Source: Rhodothermales bacterium (lineage in GTDB: Bacteria > Bacteroidota > Rhodothermia > Rhodothermales > VXPQ01). From it: DNA of 64,000 nucleotides. The notes under the pieces were generated by a model. That model did no database searches. It was given only the letters and a program-made list of their open reading frames with translations, and had not been told where the DNA came from. The stretch is taken from contig JAJECT010000028.1 in NCBI GenBank assembly GCA_022821845.1, forward strand, positions 1-64,000. Direction: 5' to 3'. Of the stretch, positions 10,165-44,535 are shown piece after piece. Numbering within the stretch: position 1 is the stretch's first letter; each line of letters starts with the position of its first letter. The position numbers were made by a program, and so were the translations under genes.

Positions 10165-10185
10165 GAATGCGTCAAGGAGATGGCG

Positions 10186-10405
10186 GCCTGGGCGGGCGAG
10201 GATGGCGGCCTGCGCGGGCGGAGACGGGAGCCTGCGCGGGCGGAGACGGGAGCCTGCGTGGGCGGAGACGGGAGCCTGCGTGGGCGGAGACGGGGGCCTG
10301 CGCGGGCGGAGACGGGAGCCTGCGCGGGTGGAGACGGGGGCCTGCGTGGGTGGAGACGGGAGCCTGCGCGGGCGGAGACGGGAGCCTGGGCGGAATCCGT
10401 TGTCC
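10186..10405. repeat. 22-bp minisatellite, about ten tandem units
   Basis: Units begin with GCC at 10186, 10208, 10230, 10252, 10274, 10296, 10318, 10340, 10362 and 10384, exactly 22 bases apart. The core is GCCTGCGCGGGCGGAGACGG plus GA, with the first and last units degenerate. Because 22 is not a multiple of three, all frames are read in turn, so it is not a peptide repeat. It lies in the divergent promoter region between the parvulin gene (-) and the sulfatase gene (+). Confidence 0.92.
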
Positions 10406-14335: not shown

Positions 14336-16498
14336 TCACGTTCCAGCGAGGCGGGCGCGGTCCAGCGGCGTGAATTCCGGGCGGAACGCGCCCTTGTCAA
14401 TGCGATATACGCGGTCGGCCCGGGACAGAAAAGACGCCGAATGGGAGGCCACGATCGTTATGCAATCCTGGCGATAGCGATCCAGCATATCCATAACCTG
14501 CCGCGCCGTATCGCTATCCATGGCGGAGGTGGGTTCGTCGAGCAGGAGCACCTGCGGGCTGCGGACCAGCGCCCTCGCCAACCCCACCAACTGCTGTTGT
14601 CCGCCGGACAAGGCGGCGCCCCCCTCCCCCACGAGCGTCATATACCCGTTCGGCAACGTTTCGAAAAAATCGGAAAGCCCGACCTCTTCGCATTTTGTTA
14701 TGGCTTCGCGGGGAGCGAGCGCAAGGCCCAGCCGGATGTTGTCTACAAGCGTCCCGCTGAATATCCGGATGTCCTGCGGAACCACGCCAAGCATATCCCG
14801 CCATCCGATGACCGAAAATTCGTTCCAGTCGCATCCGTTGACCAGCACCTCCCCGGACTGGGGCGTGGCAAGGCGCTGCAACATGCGCAACAGGGACGAT
14901 TTGCCGGACCCCGTGCTCCCGACAATCAGCATGAGCTCGCCGGAATAGCATGAGAACGAAACGTCGCCGAGCAACGTCAACTGGCCGGGATAGCTGAAAA
15001 CGACGCGGGAAACCTTGATGCGGCGGACATGGCCGAGGGGGCTCTTTGCCGCTTCTTGCTCCGCATCGTATTCGGGACGAAGCGAAGTAAACTGGTAAAT
15101 CCGGTCGAATGCGACCTTGGCCTCCTGAAAATCCACGTTCGACGTGGCCAGCGCCTGGGCGCTCGGCACAACCATCCCGATCATTTGCAAAATAGCGACC
15201 ATGGCGCCAAGCCCCAGGACGTCGCCAAGCACAAGCATCGACGCCCACGCCAGCGCGCCCGTCGTAATCAGGGCGCCCACGATCGTCAGTACGCCGCTGA
15301 ACCGTACGGCAACCTGGCCCAAACGAAAAATTTCCTCTTGAAGATGGAGGTACGTATCGCGCATCAGCCGGGTGAAAACGGCCTCGGCGTTGGCCGACTT
15401 GATGGCCTCGATGCCCCGAATGGCTTCGACGTACCCGCTCTGGTTCAGCGAATGCGCCGTCATGATGCGCTGCTGCCCCTTTACGACAGGCCGATGAAAA
15501 TGCCGCGACGCCAGCATGAACAAAAGCAGCGCAAGGAATACCGCCCCGGCAATGCCCGGGCTGTGTACGAAAATGAACGACATGCCCGCCACGAGGACCA
15601 GCGCCTCGATAATCACATTGCCCAGCACATGCGTTACGGTTTGCTGAAGCCGTTCGGCGTCGTTGAGGCGGGCGATCAGGTCGCCTGTCTTGCGCGAACT
15701 GAAAAAAGCGTAGGGCAAGCGCAGCAAATCGTCCAGAAATCTCCTCGTGATGCGGTTGTTGAATGCGCGCGCCTGCCCCAGAAGCAATAGCTGCCGGGCG
15801 ACGCCCATGCCTCCCTGCGCCGCCAGCACAAGGAAAAGCAGCGCCAATCCTGTCGCGAGTTGCTCCGTATTCCGCTCTGGCAGGATATCGTCGATGAGGA
15901 TTTGGGAAAAGAAGGCCACCCCAAGCCCGAACGCGGACACGAGGCCGCCCAGCGCAACCGACAACATCAGGATGCGGACGTCTTCGCGCACCGCGTCCCA
16001 CAACCATGCCCGCTTGACCGACGCCCGGTGTTTTCGGGTTACGAATCCGTTATCCGGGCGCAAGAGCAGAAGCGCCCGGCTCTCCCATATTTTTTCGAGT
16101 TCTGCGGGCTTGCGCCAGACAATGCCTGTTTCCGGGTCGCCAATCAAAAACCGGCCCCCGAAACACCCGAATAAAATGACGTAATGCTGGCGGACGCCGT
16201 TCAGCACCACATGCAGCACGGCGGGCGCGTCCAGGCCCCGCAGGTCGTCGATCCCGGCCTCGTACGGCTCGGATCGAAGCCCGATTTGCCCGGCCGCCTG
16301 GTGCAATCCAAGAAGCGTGGTGCCCTGCGACATGGTGCCGCTGAGGCCCCGAAGCCGCTCCATGGTTTCCTCGCCTCCGAAAAAACGAACAATCCAGGCA
16401 AGGCAGGCAACCCCGCAATCGGACTGATCGAATTGCCTAACGATCGATTTTGTCGCTCGCCTGGTTATTGCCCGGCAAGCCTTGTCCTTTCGATTCAT
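14336..16498 (-). CDS. Peptidase-containing ABC exporter (C39 protease + TMD + NBD), bacteriocin type
   Basis: 720 residues, the usual length of bacteriocin processing exporters (SunT/LagD/ComA type). The N-terminal C39 peptidase has the full catalytic set: Gln22 and Cys28 (QFDQSDCGVAC), His105 (RQHYVILFG) and Asp121 (LIGDPETG). Six membrane segments follow (about 165-430). The NBD has Walker A GSTGSGKSS, signature LSGGQQQ, Walker B VLLLDEPTS and H-loop ASHS. It should cleave double-glycine leaders and export the mature peptides. Its ATG overlaps the stop of the thioredoxin-like gene (ATGA), so translation is coupled. It is the last gene of the peptide operon, whose three short products supply matching leaders. 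Confidence 0.95.
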   Translation of the reverse strand: MNRKDKACRAITRRATKSIVRQFDQSDCGVACLAWIVRFFGGEETMERLRGLSGTMSQGTTLLGLHQAAGQIGLRSEPYEAGIDDLRGLDAPAVLHVVLNGVRQHYVILFGCFGGRFLIGDPETGIVWRKPAELEKIWESRALLLLRPDNGFVTRKHRASVKRAWLWDAVREDVRILMLSVALGGLVSAFGLGVAFFSQILIDDILPERNTEQLATGLALLFLVLAAQGGMGVARQLLLLGQARAFNNRITRRFLDDLLRLPYAFFSSRKTGDLIARLNDAERLQQTVTHVLGNVIIEALVLVAGMSFIFVHSPGIAGAVFLALLLFMLASRHFHRPVVKGQQRIMTAHSLNQSGYVEAIRGIEAIKSANAEAVFTRLMRDTYLHLQEEIFRLGQVAVRFSGVLTIVGALITTGALAWASMLVLGDVLGLGAMVAILQMIGMVVPSAQALATSNVDFQEAKVAFDRIYQFTSLRPEYDAEQEAAKSPLGHVRRIKVSRVVFSYPGQLTLLGDVSFSCYSGELMLIVGSTGSGKSSLLRMLQRLATPQSGEVLVNGCDWNEFSVIGWRDMLGVVPQDIRIFSGTLVDNIRLGLALAPREAITKCEEVGLSDFFETLPNGYMTLVGEGGAALSGGQQQLVGLARALVRSPQVLLLDEPTSAMDSDTARQVMDMLDRYRQDCITIVASHSASFLSRADRVYRIDKGAFRPEFTPLDRARLAGT

Positions 16499-17022
16499 AA
16501 CGATTCCTCGCCGCGAGCGGCAGCCGCAATGCGTTCAATGGCTGCAATACCTTCGAACGTATCGCGCAAGCGACCGTCCGGTCCATATACGAATGTCGTC
16601 GGCACGATGGCAATGCCCAGCGTATCGCCAAGCACCGAAGCAGTGTCCCGAAGTACGCGAAACCAGGGCACGGCGGCGACGCCTGTTTCCCCGGCGAACG
16701 ACTGCAACGCGGCGGGCTCCTCCCAAGCCACGAAAAACACCTCGTGCTCCTTGAAAAGCATCGATTTTTCGCTGAACGCACGCAATTCCGCCCGGCAGTA
16801 TTCGCAAGTGGTCGTAAAAAACACGAGCACCACGCTTTGCCGCCCGTCGGCGCGCAGGAGGACCGGCGCTTCTTTCAGGTCTACGAGATGCGTTTCCGGG
16901 AGACGTACGCGGCGTTCGACGGCTTCAAGACGCCGGATCCGCAGGTCCCGGAACGCGATCCCAAGCCATGCGACAACGCCAAGCAGCGCGATTATGACCA
17001 GCACGGCCCCTGTCTTTTTCAT
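16495..17022 (-). CDS. Membrane-anchored thioredoxin-like thiol oxidoreductase
   Basis: 175 residues. One N-terminal membrane segment (VLVIIALLGVVAWLGIAF) is followed by a thioredoxin fold with FTTTCEYCRAEL; the redox pair is Cys73 and Cys76, and a cis-Pro loop lies at IVPTTFVYG. The catalytic domain should face the periplasm. In glycocin and other disulfide-bacteriocin loci, a thiol oxidoreductase of this type (BdbA in sublancin) forms the peptide disulfides. The three peptides encoded here have 2, 2 and 4 core cysteines, which fits. It overlaps the exporter gene by 4 bases. Confidence 0.85.
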   Translation of the reverse strand: MKKTGAVLVIIALLGVVAWLGIAFRDLRIRRLEAVERRVRLPETHLVDLKEAPVLLRADGRQSVVLVFFTTTCEYCRAELRAFSEKSMLFKEHEVFFVAWEEPAALQSFAGETGVAAVPWFRVLRDTASVLGDTLGIAIVPTTFVYGPDGRLRDTFEGIAAIERIAAAARGEESL

Positions 17023-17034
17023 GGCGCGCTCCTG

Positions 17035-17709
17035 TCAAAAAACGGAAAGAAGGATAAACGTGATCGCAGCGATCAAAAGCGCCTTGACGCCGCCGTACGA
17101 GACCGCCGCGAGCAGCGTCACGTTTTTTGGCGCTTGCCCGGTCGAGAGGCGAATCATGCGCGCAAGAAGCAGGACATACGCCACCTCGAACAGATTCAGC
17201 GTCCGCAGGATATGGACGGCCCACATAGAACCCGCCTCGACTTCCACAAGGCCAAGCAGGGAAAGGGGGTAGAAAAACGGATCCATGCCCGGCGCGAGGA
17301 GCATCCAGAAAAGACGTACGACTTCCGCCGCGGCCCACACGATTTCGGCCATCATGGCGGCATGAAAAAGCCTGGAAAATCGCACTTTCCACGAGATAAT
17401 CGCCGCGCCCAGGGCAAGGCAAAGCGCCGTAAAGCCAACCTTTGCGAGCACGTAGAACGGGGTCGACGCATACCCTATCCAGCGGAACGCTCCGCGCGCT
17501 TCGGGAAGTTGCAGAACGCCTCCTTCGGCAGGCGCCGTCTGCACATATTCGGTGGTTACCCAGCTCGTGATCGCGTACAGCGACGCATAGCCGCACAGAA
17601 GCAGCCAGAACATCCATTTTTCGGTATTGCTTTTGGGCTCGCCGCCCTGCGGAGCGGCCCACCCGCTGGCGGCGGGCGCGGCTTGCACCGGATCGCTTCC
17701 ATAAGTCAT
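17035..17709 (-). CDS. Unknown multi-pass membrane protein of the peptide operon
   Basis: 224 residues. A soluble Ala/Pro-rich N-terminus is followed by about five hydrophobic segments: WMFWLLLCGYASLYAI, FYVLAKVGFTALCLALG, AMMAEIVWAAAEVVRLFW, FEVAYVLLLARM and ALLIAAITFILLSVF. I do not recognise the family. There is no CxxC pair, so it is not DsbB-like. Its position between the precursors and the export genes makes self-immunity or peptide-handling plausible, but that is inference. It ends 12 bases before the thioredoxin-like gene. Confidence 0.7.
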   Translation of the reverse strand: MTYGSDPVQAAPAASGWAAPQGGEPKSNTEKWMFWLLLCGYASLYAITSWVTTEYVQTAPAEGGVLQLPEARGAFRWIGYASTPFYVLAKVGFTALCLALGAAIISWKVRFSRLFHAAMMAEIVWAAAEVVRLFWMLLAPGMDPFFYPLSLLGLVEVEAGSMWAVHILRTLNLFEVAYVLLLARMIRLSTGQAPKNVTLLAAVSYGGVKALLIAAITFILLSVF

Positions 17710-17747
17710 TGTAAACTGCCTCTGGTATATCTTATTTCGGAGGGTAT

Positions 17748-17775
17748 CGCCGCCGCGCCTCGTTGCGCGGCGGCG
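17748..17775 (-). terminator. Perfect 11-bp GC hairpin inside the peptide operon
   Basis: CGCCGCCGCGC (17748-17758) and GCGCGGCGGCG (17765-17775) pair perfectly round a 6-base loop. It lies between the third precursor gene and the membrane-protein gene, with no following T-run on the transcribed strand. Probably an mRNA-stabilising or attenuating stem that gives excess precursor over export mRNA. Confidence 0.6.
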
Positions 17776-17781
17776 TATGGT

Positions 17782-17833
17782 AAAAAGGACGGCCCGGAAT
17801 GCGGGGGCGGATGCGGAACGCGCCCGCCCCCGC
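17782..17833 (-). terminator. Terminator-like hairpin just after the 55-residue peptide gene
   Basis: Arms at 17801-17810 and 17824-17833 (GCGGGGGCGG with its complement) pair perfectly round a 13-base loop. On the minus strand a run of five T (17782-17786) follows about 15 bases later. It starts 7 bases after the peptide stop codon. A partial terminator here would set the ratio of precursor to downstream transport genes. Confidence 0.55.
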
Positions 17834-17839
17834 CCTTCC

Positions 17840-18007
17840 TTAGCTGGCGCACAGCAGATAGCTCAGCGCGTACCTCACGCCGTGCGGATTAAACGGACCT
17901 GGACCATTGCGTATGATCAAGTCCAGCAGGGCGCGGGCGGATCTGCCCTCGCACGGGGCAGCGCCGCCAAGCACGGCGGACATTCGGATTGCGTTCAGGG
18001 TTTTCAT
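17840..18007 (-). CDS. Double-glycine leader peptide, 55 residues (candidate bacteriocin precursor)
   Basis: The ATG at 18007 has AAAGGTGA six bases upstream. The leader MKTLNAIRMSAVLGG (15 residues) ends in Gly-Gly, the C39 cleavage site. The core is 40 residues, with cysteines at 19 and 53, a Pro/Gly-rich centre (RNGPGPFNPHG) and a C-terminal SYLLCAS. Leader length and start (MKTL) match the adjacent 74-residue peptide. It lies 44 bases after that gene, in the same operon as the C39 exporter. The core matches no family I know. Confidence 0.75.
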   Translation of the reverse strand: MKTLNAIRMSAVLGGAAPCEGRSARALLDLIIRNGPGPFNPHGVRYALSYLLCAS

Positions 18008-18051
18008 AGCGATCACCTTTGGTTTAGGGTTCAGGTGGAATACGGAACAGG

Positions 18052-18276
18052 TCAGCTCCTTGACAACCGGCAGATCACATAGCCTACCCCGGCGCCGGCC
18101 ACAATCCCCGCGGCAGAAATGGCTGTAGCCACGCCGCCCGTAGCAAGGCCCAGCGCGAATCCGCCGACGATCATACCCACGCTCATGGATGACGCGTACA
18201 TCACGCCGATTCTTGCTCCAATGCTTTTGCAACCGCCGCTCGTGCGGTGCATTTGCTCGATGGTTAGTGTTTTCAT
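18052..18276 (-). CDS. Double-glycine leader peptide, 74 residues, glycine-zipper core (candidate bacteriocin)
   Basis: The leader MKTLTIEQMHRTSGG is a textbook double-glycine leader. The 59-residue core begins with Cys16, carries a long Gly/Ala-rich hydrophobic helix (GMIVGGFALGLATGG, then AGIVAGAGVGYVIC) with GxxxG spacing, and ends with a basic tail after Cys69. Such cores are typical of membrane-active class II bacteriocins. The ribosome site before the ATG at 18276 is weak (GAAGAACC). It starts 49 bases after the glycosyltransferase gene stop. Confidence 0.8.
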   Translation of the reverse strand: MKTLTIEQMHRTSGGCKSIGARIGVMYASSMSVGMIVGGFALGLATGGVATAISAAGIVAGAGVGYVICRLSRS

Positions 18277-18325
18277 GGTTCTTCGTTGGTTAAAAGGGTT
18301 TTGAAATAGCGCTGGCTCGACCGCG

Positions 18326-20542
18326 TCAAAACGCCCCCATGCGCAGAACGACCGCTTCGTCCATCCGCATCTCCCGGGCGCACAACACAATGTCGAGCCA
18401 GTGTTTGACGAGTGTTCCATAGGCGCCGACCAGATCGCGCAGGCGCGACCTGCGTTCGTCGACGCCGCCGGCCAAATCGACCGGCGCATTGCATTCCTGC
18501 TGCGTTACGAATTGCTCCAGCGTATCCGCAAACCGCCTCAAATCCGCCCGCATGGGCGGAATCGATCCGGCGGGGCCCGACAAGACATCCTCGATATAGC
18601 GCATCGACATCCCAATAGATCGTTCTACGGCGCCTCGGCATGCCCTGTTGAAATCGGCTTGATCGAGCGAAGCGTACGATGCGAGATGTTTCCCGAGGTC
18701 GTACAGCCTGCGCGGAAGCGCGTCGGACTGCGAAGCGCCCCATTCCGCAATCAGGGCCGCGAGTATATCGTTGACCCTGAAGCCCTCGAAACCGATCTCC
18801 GCTGGAAACGACGCGCGTTCTTCCGCAGGGCGATGCCCAATGACGTATCCCCCGCAAAACCCCCGCAAGAGCGACGGAAAAACGGCGTCCAGCGTTGTGC
18901 TGAATACGCCGTCCTCGTTGCGGCCCGCAGGCATAAACGGGGGAAGCAGCTCCCGATTGTCCAGGCCCATGTTCATCCCCAGGCAAAACAGCCCGTCGCC
19001 GATGGTGGGACGCGCGACGGCGCGTCCCACCTCGCGAGTGCGCATGCCTTCCGGATAACCGGCCCGAATCAATCGACCCAGAGAAGCCCCCTCGATAAAC
19101 AGCCTCGCCGCATTCGACGACGTCCCCGCGTCTCCCGCATGCCCGACGAAGGTTAGCCCCACAGAGCCGTTCGACAAACGCCGCAGGAGCGGAGGCTGCG
19201 CATCGTCTATGACTATGTCGTCCCAACCGGACTCCTCCAGCAAAGGCGCAACCGAACGACCAAGCAGCGATTCGTGCATCCCGACGAAATCCGCCTCCTC
19301 TGCCTGCTCCCAGTCGCATGCGCCAAACCAGTACTCGTTGGGATCCACTTGCGAAGAAAGCGCAACGCCGGATCGCGCGCCCGGGACCTTGAACAAGGGA
19401 GGGCTGACGTCGTCGTCCACCTGCAAGGAAAGCTCCCCCGCCGTAGCCAGCAGCAACGCATTCCGGTTCGCCCCGTAATTCGTGCTGCACGCTTCGCTCC
19501 CGCAAAGCGCAAAACGCAACACATCCGGGTTGCAACCAGTCTCGTCCGCCAACGTGCGTATCAGGGTCGCTCGCCAGGCTTCGTCCAGATATTCCACCTG
19601 GGCGCCGATATCGTTTCGCAAGGCCCTGAGCGCCGTTGCGAGCCGCGCCTGCTCCGCCAGCTCCGAACTGTCCGCCACGACGAAACGCACAGATCGCCCA
19701 TGCCTGGACGCATGCTCGCGCCAGGATCGAATGGCGGCAAGCACGCTGCCCATGCGATGGCATGTCGGAATGCCGATGGAGGATATATGGCCCTCTTCTT
19801 CAGGAAAATCCGTACCGCCCGCCGCGTAGCGCATCGCTTCCTGTCGTACGTCGGATTCCGACGTCAGCAGCCCGGATTCGGCCCATGCGCGCCACGTTTC
19901 GGAATCCACGGCCTCCGCCGCGCTACCGGCGAAATCCCGACGGATCCGGTGCTCGTGCGCGGCCATGCTCCGAAACCGGTCGGCGCGAAACAGTTGCTGC
20001 GCTTCCAGTGCGCGCAATACCTTGACCGCGCCCGTGCGTCGCGAACGAACCAGTACGCGCTCGTTGCCCATGCCGACCGCTTCCACATCGAAACAACGAT
20101 ACCGCTCGGCGGCGGACGCCGGGGCGATCCGCGCGGGACCGTCGGCATACAGCAACATGCGCGAACGCCAGCAACGAACCAGATCCGGCGGCGCCATGCG
20201 ACGAACGCCGCGCCGCGGATCTCCTATGACGTATTTGCCGGCGCGAAAACCGTAATACACCACGAACCGGCCTTGCCCCTCCTTCTCTTCGTCTTCCCAA
20301 TACAGGATGCCCGGCGCCTCAAGCGCTCGCAGGCCGCTCAGCGTGCCTTCGTACCCGCGCACGTCGAGACCGGCGTCCGCAAGCGCGCCGTACAGGTCCA
20401 GCATGGATTCGCCGGAAACATACGCCTCCTCCCCGTCTGCGCCGTGATGGCGAAGCAAGGCCGCCACGCAGACGCTTTCCCCCGAATGTTCCTCCATAGC
20501 GCGAGCGAATGCCCGCTTGACGTCTTGCAAATCCATATCCAT
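18326..20542 (-). CDS. Degenerate C39-like domain fused to GT2-like glycosyltransferase (candidate peptide glycosyltransferase)
   Basis: 738 residues. Residues about 15-135 align with the C39 domain of the exporter in this same operon (APGILYW, GRFVVYYG, KYVIGDPRRG, WRSRMLLY), but the catalytic Cys position is Gly21 and the His is Arg92; only the Asp (109) remains. Residues about 150-230 form a small linker domain with a VLVRSRRTGAVKVL strand region. Residues about 252-400 begin a GT-A fold: SIGIPTCHRMGSV, RFVVADSS, NYGANRNALLLATAG and the metal motif QVDDDV. The rest is unassigned. SunS-type GT2 enzymes glycosylate Cys/Ser of glycocins; the C39-like part could hold the double-glycine leader. 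Both points are inference. A second ATG at 20536 is possible, with AGAGGA upstream. Confidence 0.75.
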   Translation of the reverse strand: MDMDLQDVKRAFARAMEEHSGESVCVAALLRHHGADGEEAYVSGESMLDLYGALADAGLDVRGYEGTLSGLRALEAPGILYWEDEEKEGQGRFVVYYGFRAGKYVIGDPRRGVRRMAPPDLVRCWRSRMLLYADGPARIAPASAAERYRCFDVEAVGMGNERVLVRSRRTGAVKVLRALEAQQLFRADRFRSMAAHEHRIRRDFAGSAAEAVDSETWRAWAESGLLTSESDVRQEAMRYAAGGTDFPEEEGHISSIGIPTCHRMGSVLAAIRSWREHASRHGRSVRFVVADSSELAEQARLATALRALRNDIGAQVEYLDEAWRATLIRTLADETGCNPDVLRFALCGSEACSTNYGANRNALLLATAGELSLQVDDDVSPPLFKVPGARSGVALSSQVDPNEYWFGACDWEQAEEADFVGMHESLLGRSVAPLLEESGWDDIVIDDAQPPLLRRLSNGSVGLTFVGHAGDAGTSSNAARLFIEGASLGRLIRAGYPEGMRTREVGRAVARPTIGDGLFCLGMNMGLDNRELLPPFMPAGRNEDGVFSTTLDAVFPSLLRGFCGGYVIGHRPAEERASFPAEIGFEGFRVNDILAALIAEWGASQSDALPRRLYDLGKHLASYASLDQADFNRACRGAVERSIGMSMRYIEDVLSGPAGSIPPMRADLRRFADTLEQFVTQQECNAPVDLAGGVDERRSRLRDLVGAYGTLVKHWLDIVLCAREMRMDEAVVLRMGAF

Positions 20543-20652
20543 CCTCTACGAATGCAGCCGGACGACCGGCTTTCATTGCCCCTGGAAATAGTCCCGACGA
20601 ACCGCCGCCGTCGTTTCTTCGCTTGCGCAGCAAGAATGCATGCGCCCGGCCG

Positions 20653-20844
20653 CTAACTGCAGAATCTGCGGCAAGCCCTGGCGTACCGTCGGCCCGTAAC
20701 CCAGGCTTGGGACCAGCCGCCCCGGAAGTATCCGACAATGCTGCCGTACACGCCGCACCCGGCTACGATATACGCCGTCAACTTGCCGCAGCCTTCGTTG
20801 CCGCCGCCCGTAATTTGCATTTCTTCTGCTGAGAGTATTCTCAT
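20653..20844 (-). CDS. Double-glycine leader peptide, 63 residues, four-cysteine core (candidate glycocin precursor)
   Basis: The ATG at 20844 follows GCGAGGTGACGTC, with AGGTGA as ribosome site. The leader MRILSAEEMQITGG ends in Gly-Gly (a third Gly follows). The 49-residue core has Cys19, Cys30, Cys58 and Cys62, a hydrophobic centre (AYIVAGCGVYGSIVGYF) and a basic Arg-rich tail ending RRYARACRRFCS. It is the first gene of the operon, 110 bases before the glycosyltransferase gene. Four cysteines plus a thioredoxin-like partner suggest two disulfides. The basic C-terminal Cys pair recalls sublancin in style only; spacing differs. Confidence 0.8.
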   Translation of the reverse strand: MRILSAEEMQITGGGNEGCGKLTAYIVAGCGVYGSIVGYFRGGWSQAWVTGRRYARACRRFCS

Positions 20845-35598: not shown

Positions 35599-36108
35599 AT
35601 GTCTGAATACCTTGACTTCGCCGTATTGATCGCCCCGGTCGTTGCCGTATTGATTGCAAGCGTTGGCTGGTTTTATCAAGGCCGCCGCAACAGGAAAACG
35701 GACAACAGAGACGACAAACGGGCTATGGAAGAACAATTCGCTGCGCTTGGGAAGAAAATCGACGACGTCAGCACGAACCTTAGCAAGCGAATGGACGACG
35801 GGAACGCGAGCCTGACCAAGCGAATCGACGACGTCAACGCGAGCCTCAGCAAGCGACTCGACGACACGAACACAAAAATCGACGACGTCAACGCGAGCCT
35901 CAGCAAGCGACTCGACGATACGAACACGAAAATCGACGACGTGAACATGGGCCTGGGCAAACGGATCGACGACATGAACGCGAACCTGAGCCAACGAATC
36001 GACGACACGAACGCGAACCTCGTCACTATGCAAACGGAACTTTCCAAGCGCATTGACGGAGTCAATACCCGTATTGACGACCTGTACGTCTCCTCGGCAA
36101 AAAAGTAG
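35599..36108 (+). CDS. Membrane-anchored coiled-coil protein with hendecad/18-residue repeats
   Basis: 169 residues. One N-terminal membrane helix (FAVLIAPVVAVLIASVGWFY) is followed by RRNRKTDNRDD and a long coiled coil built of KRIDDVNASLS-type hendecads. At DNA level a 54-base unit (DDVNASLSKRLDDTNTKI) is repeated exactly in tandem from about 35827. Lengths of such repeats change easily by recombination. It resembles single-pass scaffolding proteins, but no enzyme domain is visible and I do not know the family. It is expressed from the duplicated promoter cassette. The start was chosen at the ATG directly before the membrane helix. Confidence 0.7.
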   Translation: MSEYLDFAVLIAPVVAVLIASVGWFYQGRRNRKTDNRDDKRAMEEQFAALGKKIDDVSTNLSKRMDDGNASLTKRIDDVNASLSKRLDDTNTKIDDVNASLSKRLDDTNTKIDDVNMGLGKRIDDMNANLSQRIDDTNANLVTMQTELSKRIDGVNTRIDDLYVSSAKK

Positions 36109-39641: not shown

Positions 39642-40133
39642 ATGAAAAACTGGAATTGGAAACCAATCGTTGCCGGAATCGCGTTGCTTGGCGTGCTGGC
39701 TACCTTCTACGGAACGATCCGGGCGGATATGCGCGGAATCCGGACAGACATGCGAGTAGAAATGCAAGGCGTACGAACAGAAATACAGGACGTACGAACG
39801 GAAATTAGCGTCTTGCGTTCCGAGGTACGAACAGAGATTCAAGACTTACGGTCAGAAATTCACGCCTTGCGGTCGGACGTACGGGAAGACATTCGAGGCT
39901 TGCGGGCGGAAATGCGCGCCTTGCATACCGTTGAGGCACCCCCGCCTACCAAGGCAACAGGGGAAAATACCGCGCCTGCGTCGATCCCTGCACAGCCAAG
40001 TTCCGCGCTTGCTCCCCAAGCCGAGCAGGAACCCGTTGCATTGTCCGCCGTCGCATACGAAATGCCCTGCGTCCGCTCCCCGCACCGATTAGCCCGATAT
40101 ATCGCGGCGGTTACCTTGTGGTATAATGCCTGA
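39642..40133 (+). CDS. Membrane-anchored coiled-coil protein with heptad repeats
   Basis: 163 residues from the ATG at 39642 (an ATG at 39594 is in frame). A membrane helix (IVAGIALLGVLATFYGTI) is followed by heptads of the type RTEIQDV/RTEISVL/RSEVRTE/IQDLRSE, then a Pro/Ala-rich tail. It is similar in plan, but not in repeat sequence, to the protein at 35599, and is driven by the same promoter cassette. The family is unknown. Its 3' end contains the McrBC promoter, so the tail may not be under strong selection. Confidence 0.6.
   Translation: MKNWNWKPIVAGIALLGVLATFYGTIRADMRGIRTDMRVEMQGVRTEIQDVRTEISVLRSEVRTEIQDLRSEIHALRSDVREDIRGLRAEMRALHTVEAPPPTKATGENTAPASIPAQPSSALAPQAEQEPVALSAVAYEMPCVRSPHRLARYIAAVTLWYNA
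40119..40127 (+). promoter_or_regulatory. Extended -10 promoter for mcrBC
   Basis: TGGTATAAT fits an extended -10 box, 44 bases before the mcrB ATG. The -35 position (40099-40104, ATATCG) is poor, as is common with extended -10 promoters. The box lies within the end of the coiled-coil gene. Confidence 0.5.
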
Positions 40134-43349: not shown

Positions 43350-44378
43350 CTATACCCCACGCCGCACCGCCTCCATGGCCCCAAGCACCCGGTTCCAGGT
43401 CTCCGGGCGCTCCAGTACGGCGTTGGGAAACATGCACCCGTCCCAGCAGATATGCCGGATGCCTTCCCGCAGTTCGCCGCGCTCGTCCAGCAACCACTGC
43501 CGACTGCACCATACCGGGTCCAGTTTGCCGTCGGGCGCATCGACCGGGCAATGCCTGCCCGTCTTGTCGTGCGAACCGCTCCCGAACACAGACCCGTCCG
43601 TCTGCGCCACATGAAAATCGAACAGATAGGGCGCAAGGGCGGCGGTCATGACGCCGTACGCCTCCCTGAATGCTTCTTCTGCGTACCCGTCCTCCAGTAA
43701 AGCAGCTTCGGGCGCATTGTATCCAAGCAGGTACAAATACGTGTGGGCCAGATCGGCCTGAAAACCCAGCGAAGCGGGACGGCCTACCTCTTCCAGCAAG
43801 CGCAGCATCTCCACCCAGGAATGCATGGCCGCCCAGCAAATCTCCCCTTCCGCGGCAATGCGTTCCCCGTACTCTTCCGCAACGAGCGCCGCCTCGCGAA
43901 AGGTGTCTGCAATCTTTGTCGTGTTCTCGACGGGATGCGCGGCCCATTCGACCGGGCTTGCCGCCGAATCGATCCGAATCACGCCGCAGGACCGAACGCC
44001 GTGCGCATTCAGCACGGACGCATATTCGCACGCAGCCCTCACCGCCTCCACGAAGCGCCGCCGGTCGTCGCGGCTGCCCATCGCGCTGCCCCCCAGCATG
44101 TCGGGGTACACGGGCGCCACGACGGACCCTACCCCAAGGCCCAGCGCAGCGATGCGATCCGCAAGGGCGCGAATTGCGTCCGGCGAAGCATGAATATCGA
44201 TATGGGGTTCGTACAAGAACAGGTCCACGCCATCGAATCGAATGGACGGGTCCTCTGCGATCCGGGCGTCCGCCGTAAGCCGAAGCATCCGCTCCAGCCC
44301 GATAACGGGTTCGTCCGCGCCCGCCCCTTTCCCCACCAGGCCAGGCCACATGGCATTATGAAGCAATAATCGCCGCAT
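43350..44378 (-). CDS. Sugar-phosphate isomerase/epimerase-like TIM-barrel protein
   Basis: 342 residues. It opens [18 protein letters not shown], followed by a TIM-barrel with [45 protein letters not shown] and [17 protein letters not shown] (probable metal Glu), then [13 protein letters not shown] (Asp-x-x-His) and [12 protein letters not shown]. These are the marks of the xylose-isomerase-like AP_endonuc_2 fold. The substrate is unknown; it ends the minus-strand sugar catabolism cluster. Its ATG is inside a 42-bp tandem repeat unit, and an alternative start is the Met at 44351. Confidence 0.85.
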
Positions 44379-44535
44379 TTTTTACGGAGAATAAATGATG
44401 AAAAGAAGTAATCGACGCATTTTTTGCGGAGAATAAATACTGGAAATAAATAATCGACGCATTTTTTACGAAGAATAGATGGTGGAAAGAAGTAATCGCC
44501 GCGTTTTTTGCGTAGAATAGGGATGGTCGGCAAGA
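44368..44535. repeat. 42-bp tandem repeat, four units
   Basis: Units start with AATCGMCGC at 44368, 44410, 44452 and 44494, exactly 42 bases apart. Each has a CGCATTTTTTGCG-like core that can form a short hairpin, and a GAATAAATnnTG… spacer. The minus-strand reading carries the start of the TIM-barrel gene (MRRLLL) in each unit. It fills the gap between that gene and the beta-propeller gene. Confidence 0.9.

Follow-up and report, generated by a model that had tools for sequence, protein, structure and literature searches.

Bacteroidetocins are bacteriocins with mature peptides of 42-53 residues and four cysteines that kill Bacteroidales through BamA, and glycocins are recognised by a sugar on a Ser, Thr or Cys of the core peptide. 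The bacteroidetocin (class IIf) locus described by Coyne et al. 2019 encodes a protein with five transmembrane (TM) segments, a double-glycine (GG) peptide with four Cys and a leader of 15 aa, along with a thiol oxidoreductase and a C39 peptidase-ABC exporter (C39-ABC). E. coli that carries just these four genes produces the toxin; full activity depends on both the TM protein and the oxidoreductase, and neither of the two gives immunity (PMC6671954). In glycocin loci, a precursor, a glycosyltransferase (GT), a thioredoxin-like protein and a C39 exporter are found together (PMC12457901). Here, we describe an operon of seven consecutive genes on the minus strand (14336-20844) of a 64,000-nucleotide window, which is the whole stretch of DNA analysed (contig JAJECT010000028.1, positions 1 to 64,000). 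The window comes from the 2.8 Mb genome of a marine, Bacteroidota-type bacterium of the Rhodothermales (G000); the public genomes of its genus are metagenome-assembled. The layout of the operon is that of a bacteroidetocin-type locus, to which a 738-aa protein (18326-20542) is added that joins a C39 peptidase domain devoid of its catalytic residues to a domain with the predicted fold of a GT-A glycosyltransferase.

Comparison with bacteroidetocin and glycocin loci

The initial annotation had recognised, in one minus-strand run, three GG peptides and a membrane protein together with a thioredoxin-like protein that has a membrane anchor and a C39 exporter, and all genes were confirmed at the stated coordinates. 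The multi-TM protein (17035-17709, minus strand) has 224 aa and about 4-5 TM segments by hydropathy. It is followed by the gene of a membrane-anchored thioredoxin-like protein of the ResA/TlpA type (16495-17022, minus strand; AhpC-TSA 2e-10, ResA 4e-10, CEYC motif, TM segment at residues 1-29), which overlaps by four bases the gene of the 720-aa C39-ABC exporter (14336-16498, minus strand). The latter shows the domains Peptidase_C39 (2e-26), ABC_membrane (3e-26) and ABC_tran (2e-29), and its catalytic Cys and His are intact.

The operon holds the gene set of a class IIf locus, i.e., a multi-TM protein, GG peptides, a thiol oxidoreductase and a C39-ABC exporter, in a Bacteroidota host. All three precursors have the GG at positions 14-15, in line with a leader of about 15 aa, and contain Cys pairs; the size and Cys pattern of mature class IIf peptides (42-53 aa, four Cys) fit pepA and do not fit pepB and pepC. 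Unlike the described bacteroidetocins (PMC6671954), the operon has three different precursors, two of which carry two instead of four Cys, and the additional 738-aa protein. Based on the published locus layout, we are confident in assigning it to the bacteroidetocin-type loci and not to the glycocins.

The same cassette recurs in other genomes. The TM protein was found at 15 places in 13 of the 245 genomes of the class, in all 15 beside a C39-ABC exporter, and its profile had matches in 29 of 395 Bacteroidota genomes, many of them beside thioredoxin, C39-ABC and GG peptides. In locus L134, whose TM protein is homologous to that of the window, the genes follow exactly the order published for bacteroidetocins. 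Members of this family are also present without bacteriocin neighbours (L125, L128-L130, L133, L137), so the TM protein alone is no proof of a bacteriocin locus. The combination of membrane protein, thioredoxin and C39 exporter can guide the search for modified bacteriocins in Bacteroidota.

The operon had previously been likened to sublancin-type loci. Glycocins such as sublancin, glycocin F and thermoglycocin (PMC12457901) have in common with it a GT, a thioredoxin-like protein, a C39 exporter and leader peptides, and this joint occurrence is what would be expected if a genuine member of the sublancin/glycocin F group had spread to Bacteroidota. However, the SunS-family model TIGR04195 gave no match to the 738-aa protein at E ≤ 10, while the Bacillus subtilis control genome scored above the cut-off. 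The window GT also differs from that family by its C39-like domain, and the genes for exporter, thioredoxin and membrane protein form a Bacteroidota cassette that usually lacks a GT. A glycocin origin is thus very improbable. As for the undescribed family of glycosylated or disulfide bacteriocins suggested there, the bacteriocin-type operon, the disulfide machinery and a likely GT stand, whereas the gene set without the GT has a closer counterpart, already described, in the bacteroidetocins (PMC6671954). A sugar, if added, would be a post-translational modification on bacteroidetocin-type bacteriocins.

The C39-like domain of the 738-aa protein

The 738-aa protein had been taken for a GT alone. 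It consists of two domains, and the inactive C39 domain that had been overlooked is its most unusual feature. Residues 24-134 match Peptidase_C39 (PF03412, 1.5e-9), and the match reaches 1.6e-24 in an 807-aa relative from genome G112. The alignment of the four fusion proteins with a whole domain showed that the catalytic Cys is replaced by Gly or Ser and the catalytic His by Arg or Glu, with the Asp-Pro retained; the window protein has Gly at the Cys position, has lost the His and keeps the Asp-Pro. The adjoining exporters retain both Cys and His. In the first AlphaFold model, the domain had a predicted local distance difference test score (pLDDT) below 50, which rose to 81 when residues 1-145 were modelled alone. 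This second model best matches PCAT1, ComA and LahT150, including LahT150 with a leader (Z 15-16), followed by the C39-like domain of HlyB (Z 12.4). The ratio of nonsynonymous to synonymous substitution rates (dN/dS) of 0.10-0.20 indicates purifying selection. According to the alignments and the predicted model, residues 1-145 (20108-20542, minus strand) have a C39 peptidase fold without the catalytic Cys and His.

The tree of 32 C39 domains placed the fused domains inside the clade of the exporter C39 domains of this cassette with a support of 97/98. A single origin of the fused domains, whose branches are long, was not rejected (p-AU 0.094). These results are compatible with a scenario to which we give somewhat less than an even chance: a duplicate of the leader-cutting domain of the exporter would have given up its protease activity and been recruited for leader recognition in a new family of peptide glycosyltransferases, so that exporter and GT would read the same GG leader by the same fold, and several unrelated peptides would perhaps serve as substrates through their C-terminal Ser.

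The fold is shared with the HlyB domain and with the C39 peptidases LahT150, ComA and PCAT1, and the loss of the catalytic Cys with HlyB, whose inactive C39 domain recruits the substrate (PMC6363468). In HlyB, the domain is joined to an ABC transporter, whereas in the window it is joined to a GT. No published case of a C39-like domain fused to a GT was found in the literature searched, which by itself is no proof of absence; judged from these papers, a GT-A enzyme joined to an inactive C39 domain of the exporter type has no described precedent. If the scenario holds, the modifying enzyme finds its substrate by a new route, through a dead copy of the C39 domain of the exporter, and the C39-like module could serve as a portable means of directing enzymes to GG leaders.

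The predicted glycosyltransferase domain

The GT-A domain spans residues ~248-725 (18368-19801, minus strand) and was modelled with a pLDDT of ~90. Among the 50 structural matches listed, the model is closest to the rice protein UAM2 (8cid; Z 21.6 over 309 residues, 4.2 A) and MtdL (Z 19.5); the next group starts with TarP (Z 14.7), followed by AvpGT, GalNAc-T and others (Z 14-15). SunS does not appear among these 50 matches and may still share the fold. The DDD motif at residues 376-378 (19409-19417, minus strand), D544 of the ED motif and H570 are invariant in the alignment with 15 relatives, from which L009 was left out as an unrelated reading frame. The dN/dS of the domain is 0.19-0.20, which indicates purifying selection.

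The label "GT2-like" of the initial annotation found little backing in the sequence of the window protein, a likely GT, which gave a DUF6271 match of 8e-5; in the family, Glycos_transf_2 was matched by six of the 15 members (best 1e-5) and DUF6271, for which the literature search returned no paper, by five. The family profile gave no match among the PDB sequences, and the GT was not found in the plasmid collection.

The nearest solved folds, UAM and MtdL (Z 19-22), belong to sugar-nucleotide mutases (GT75/RGP) that have a GT-A variant in common with the window protein. Membership in GT75/RGP was rejected: PF03214 matched nothing in the genome at E ≤ 1, the comparison by hhalign of the family profile with an approximate, UAM-like segment gave a probability of 0.5%, and genomic context and domain make-up differ. 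Still, these folds, together with the precedent of the substrate-recruiting inactive C39 domain of HlyB (PMC6363468), would suit a protein that is mainly a leader-binding chaperone or adaptor, its second domain being a mutase or inactive and the peptides carrying disulfides only. The missing RGP match, the invariant DDD motif of the donor site and the purifying selection on the domain make this explanation unlikely.

Conservation in sister genomes

The whole gene set is present in three sister genomes, with 738-aa orthologues of 95% (G110), 72% (G113) and 72% (G111) identity; the contig of G111 ends inside this gene, which puts pepA outside the view there. The flanking genes are the same in G110, G113 and G112. 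At the same place, G112 carries a damaged copy of the operon (L032:9033-11211), in which the gene of the two-domain protein is broken and pepA, pepC, the TM protein and the exporter remain; pepB was not found in this copy. Elsewhere in G112, a second, intact locus encodes the 807-aa fusion protein with a GG peptide of its own (pepD); an IS1595-type transposase is located between its GG peptide and its TM protein (L031:11358-12407). In G109, the remaining genome of the genus that was examined, the 738-aa protein was matched over just 64 residues of its C-terminal part.

Between the window and G113, dN/dS is 0.19 for the 738-aa protein, 0.13 for the ABC exporter, 0.36 for the TM protein, 0.30 for pepA and 0.46 for pepC, while dS of pepB is saturated. 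It is below 0.5 in all comparisons except one pepC pair with too few substitutions, and most genes of the operon are under purifying selection. As the set is conserved in sister genomes with dN/dS below 0.5, it is not a chance assembly. The initial annotation had regarded a lack of conservation of the peptides with the exporter and GT as evidence against its proposal; on this point it stands.

Precursor peptides and the C-terminal Ser

The precursor pepA (20653-20844, minus strand; 63 aa) has the leader MRILSAEEMQITGG(G), a core with four Cys and the C-terminus RRFCS; pepB (18052-18276, minus strand; 74 aa) has a Gly-rich hydrophobic core with two Cys and ends in SRS; pepC (17840-18007, minus strand; 55 aa) has a core with two Cys and a GPGPFNP motif and ends in CAS. 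The mature peptides would count 48, 59 and 40 aa, respectively. pepB is weakly similar to class IIb cerein-type peptides, and pepB-like peptides also occur in cassettes without the window GT family (L092, L098, L120).

The three leaders align without gaps, with L at position 4, M at position 9 and GG at 14-15; some leaders of the sister genomes are one residue shorter. For leader binding, LahT150 relies on hydrophobic leader residues at positions -4, -7 and -12 (PMC6363468). In the sequences of the window leaders, counted from G15, these positions are taken by T, T and V (-4), M (-7) and L (-12).

The peptides (58-60% identity) evolve more rapidly than the exporter (82%), with Cys, leader type and C-terminal Ser retained: orthologues of pepA in G110, G113 and G112 keep all four Cys and the C-terminal Ser, and pepC orthologues are present in four sister loci. 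A C-terminal Ser was found in every orthologue seen of pepA, pepB, pepC, pepD and a Sec-type peptide family described below, and five of the six peptide types beside the window GT family in the genus end in this residue. In the pepC core of G110, which has no Thr, it is the sole Ser. The background is 4% among the long open reading frames of the genus and four of 27 peptides, counted by eye, from cassettes without the window GT family. For a pattern noticed post hoc, the binomial probability of five in six is 8e-7 at 4% and 3e-4 at 14%, and the Fisher test gives 0.003, which makes a chance result unlikely. Class IIb microcins (MccE492, MccH47; PMC10233263) likewise combine a GG leader and a C39 exporter with a C-terminal Ser that may be modified, and differ from the window operon in the modifying enzyme; the siderophore-attachment families had no match among the seven operon genes, to which this search was limited. 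We regard the C-terminal Ser as a possible glycosylation site, with less than an even chance.

Relatives of the probable glycosyltransferase and their neighbours

Relatives of the GT without the C39-like part are found in Rhodothermia, Balneolaceae, Ktedonobacter, Planctomycetota, Acidobacteriota and others, often near small exported peptides where the context could be read. These are GG peptides with C39-ABC in Ktedonobacter (L069/L070) and in L061, from the class of the window, and Sec-type Cys-rich peptides in Balneolaceae (L068) and Fodinibius (L071). No small exported peptide was seen beside several other relatives (L067, L072, L073, L075). In Fodinibius-type genomes, a sulfotransferase-like gene directly follows the GT relative (L071:12974-13525, L058:3324-3881); the gene in L071 also has a small Cys-rich secreted peptide nearby. 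In G111 and G112, Sec-type small peptides flank a GT relative devoid of the C39-like domain (L035:2434-5976, L036:6756-12439); the genus has four copies of this peptide family, none of them more than 3 kb away from such a GT, and all end in IRAS or LRAS.

This distribution bears on the idea that the 738-aa protein is a self-protection GT for an acceptor in the cell envelope or another non-peptide acceptor, with the C39-like domain only anchoring it near the exporter or the leaders. The GT-A fold lies near envelope enzymes such as TarP. The operon shows no obvious gene devoted to immunity, and in the described bacteroidetocins neither the multi-TM nor the thioredoxin protein conferred it (PMC6671954). 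However, the fused domain of a leader-binding type points to the precursors, and the relative without this domain in G111 and G112 is accompanied by Sec-type peptides, all four genus copies of which lie near such a GT; self-protection is improbable.

Other, unrelated GT-like genes were found in such cassettes. In L092 (7512-9005; G182, Balneolaceae group), a GT-B glycosyltransferase of the UDPGT/EryCIII type lies between the TM protein and C39-ABC, in the usual place of thioredoxin. In L123 (6421-7263; G264), a bacteroidetocin-type cassette with one peptide ending in CWNS, a DUF6625 protein (1e-59) that we read as putatively GT-like lies between thioredoxin and C39-ABC. These genes suggest that sugar addition may have joined such operons more than once.

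Proposed course of peptide modification

Taken with the predicted folds, the gene content makes it likely, on balance, that a leader-guided GT modifies the precursors before export. Three precursors, presumably antibacterial once mature, would be made with GG leaders of 14-15 residues, which the N-terminal C39-like domain of the 738-aa protein would read. This protein would hold the precursor uncut, because the domain keeps the fold and has lost the catalytic Cys and His, and the GT-A domain would then add a sugar to the core. The modified peptides would be oxidised with the help of the membrane-anchored thioredoxin-like protein, after which the C39-ABC exporter would cut behind the GG and export them, the multi-TM protein acting as a needed accessory.

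Several observations weigh against a leader-guided GT of this kind. The closest solved folds, UAM and MtdL, are those of sugar-nucleotide mutases and not of peptide glycosyltransferases, and the sequence match to curated GT families is weak. The C-terminal Ser was noticed only after the fact; it has one exception in the genus, a peptide beside a GT in L033 that ends in Gly, and it does not extend to the neighbours of GTs in other families. pepB and pepC have two Cys, while four are described for bacteroidetocins. Finally, most such cassettes have no GT although pepB-like peptides are present in them, and glycosylation is therefore not needed for the system in general.

Intergenic hairpin and repeats in the window

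A GC-rich hairpin followed by a T run (17783-17833, minus strand) lies between the precursor genes and the export genes and resembles a terminator or attenuator. The folding energy of the region is -41.2 kcal/mol over an 81-nt stretch (z -1.7). The covariation of the five available sequences was not significant, i.e., not above that of shuffles, and the stem is kept in the five orthologous loci, with 95.7% of the cells paired. Such a structure would allow the precursors to be made in excess over the products of the export genes.

Tandem repeats were observed in other parts of the window: an array of about ten GC-rich repeats of 22 bp at 10178-10393, repeats of 33/54 bp at 35757-36020 and 39758-39924, and 3.6 copies of a 42-bp repeat at 44365-44519.

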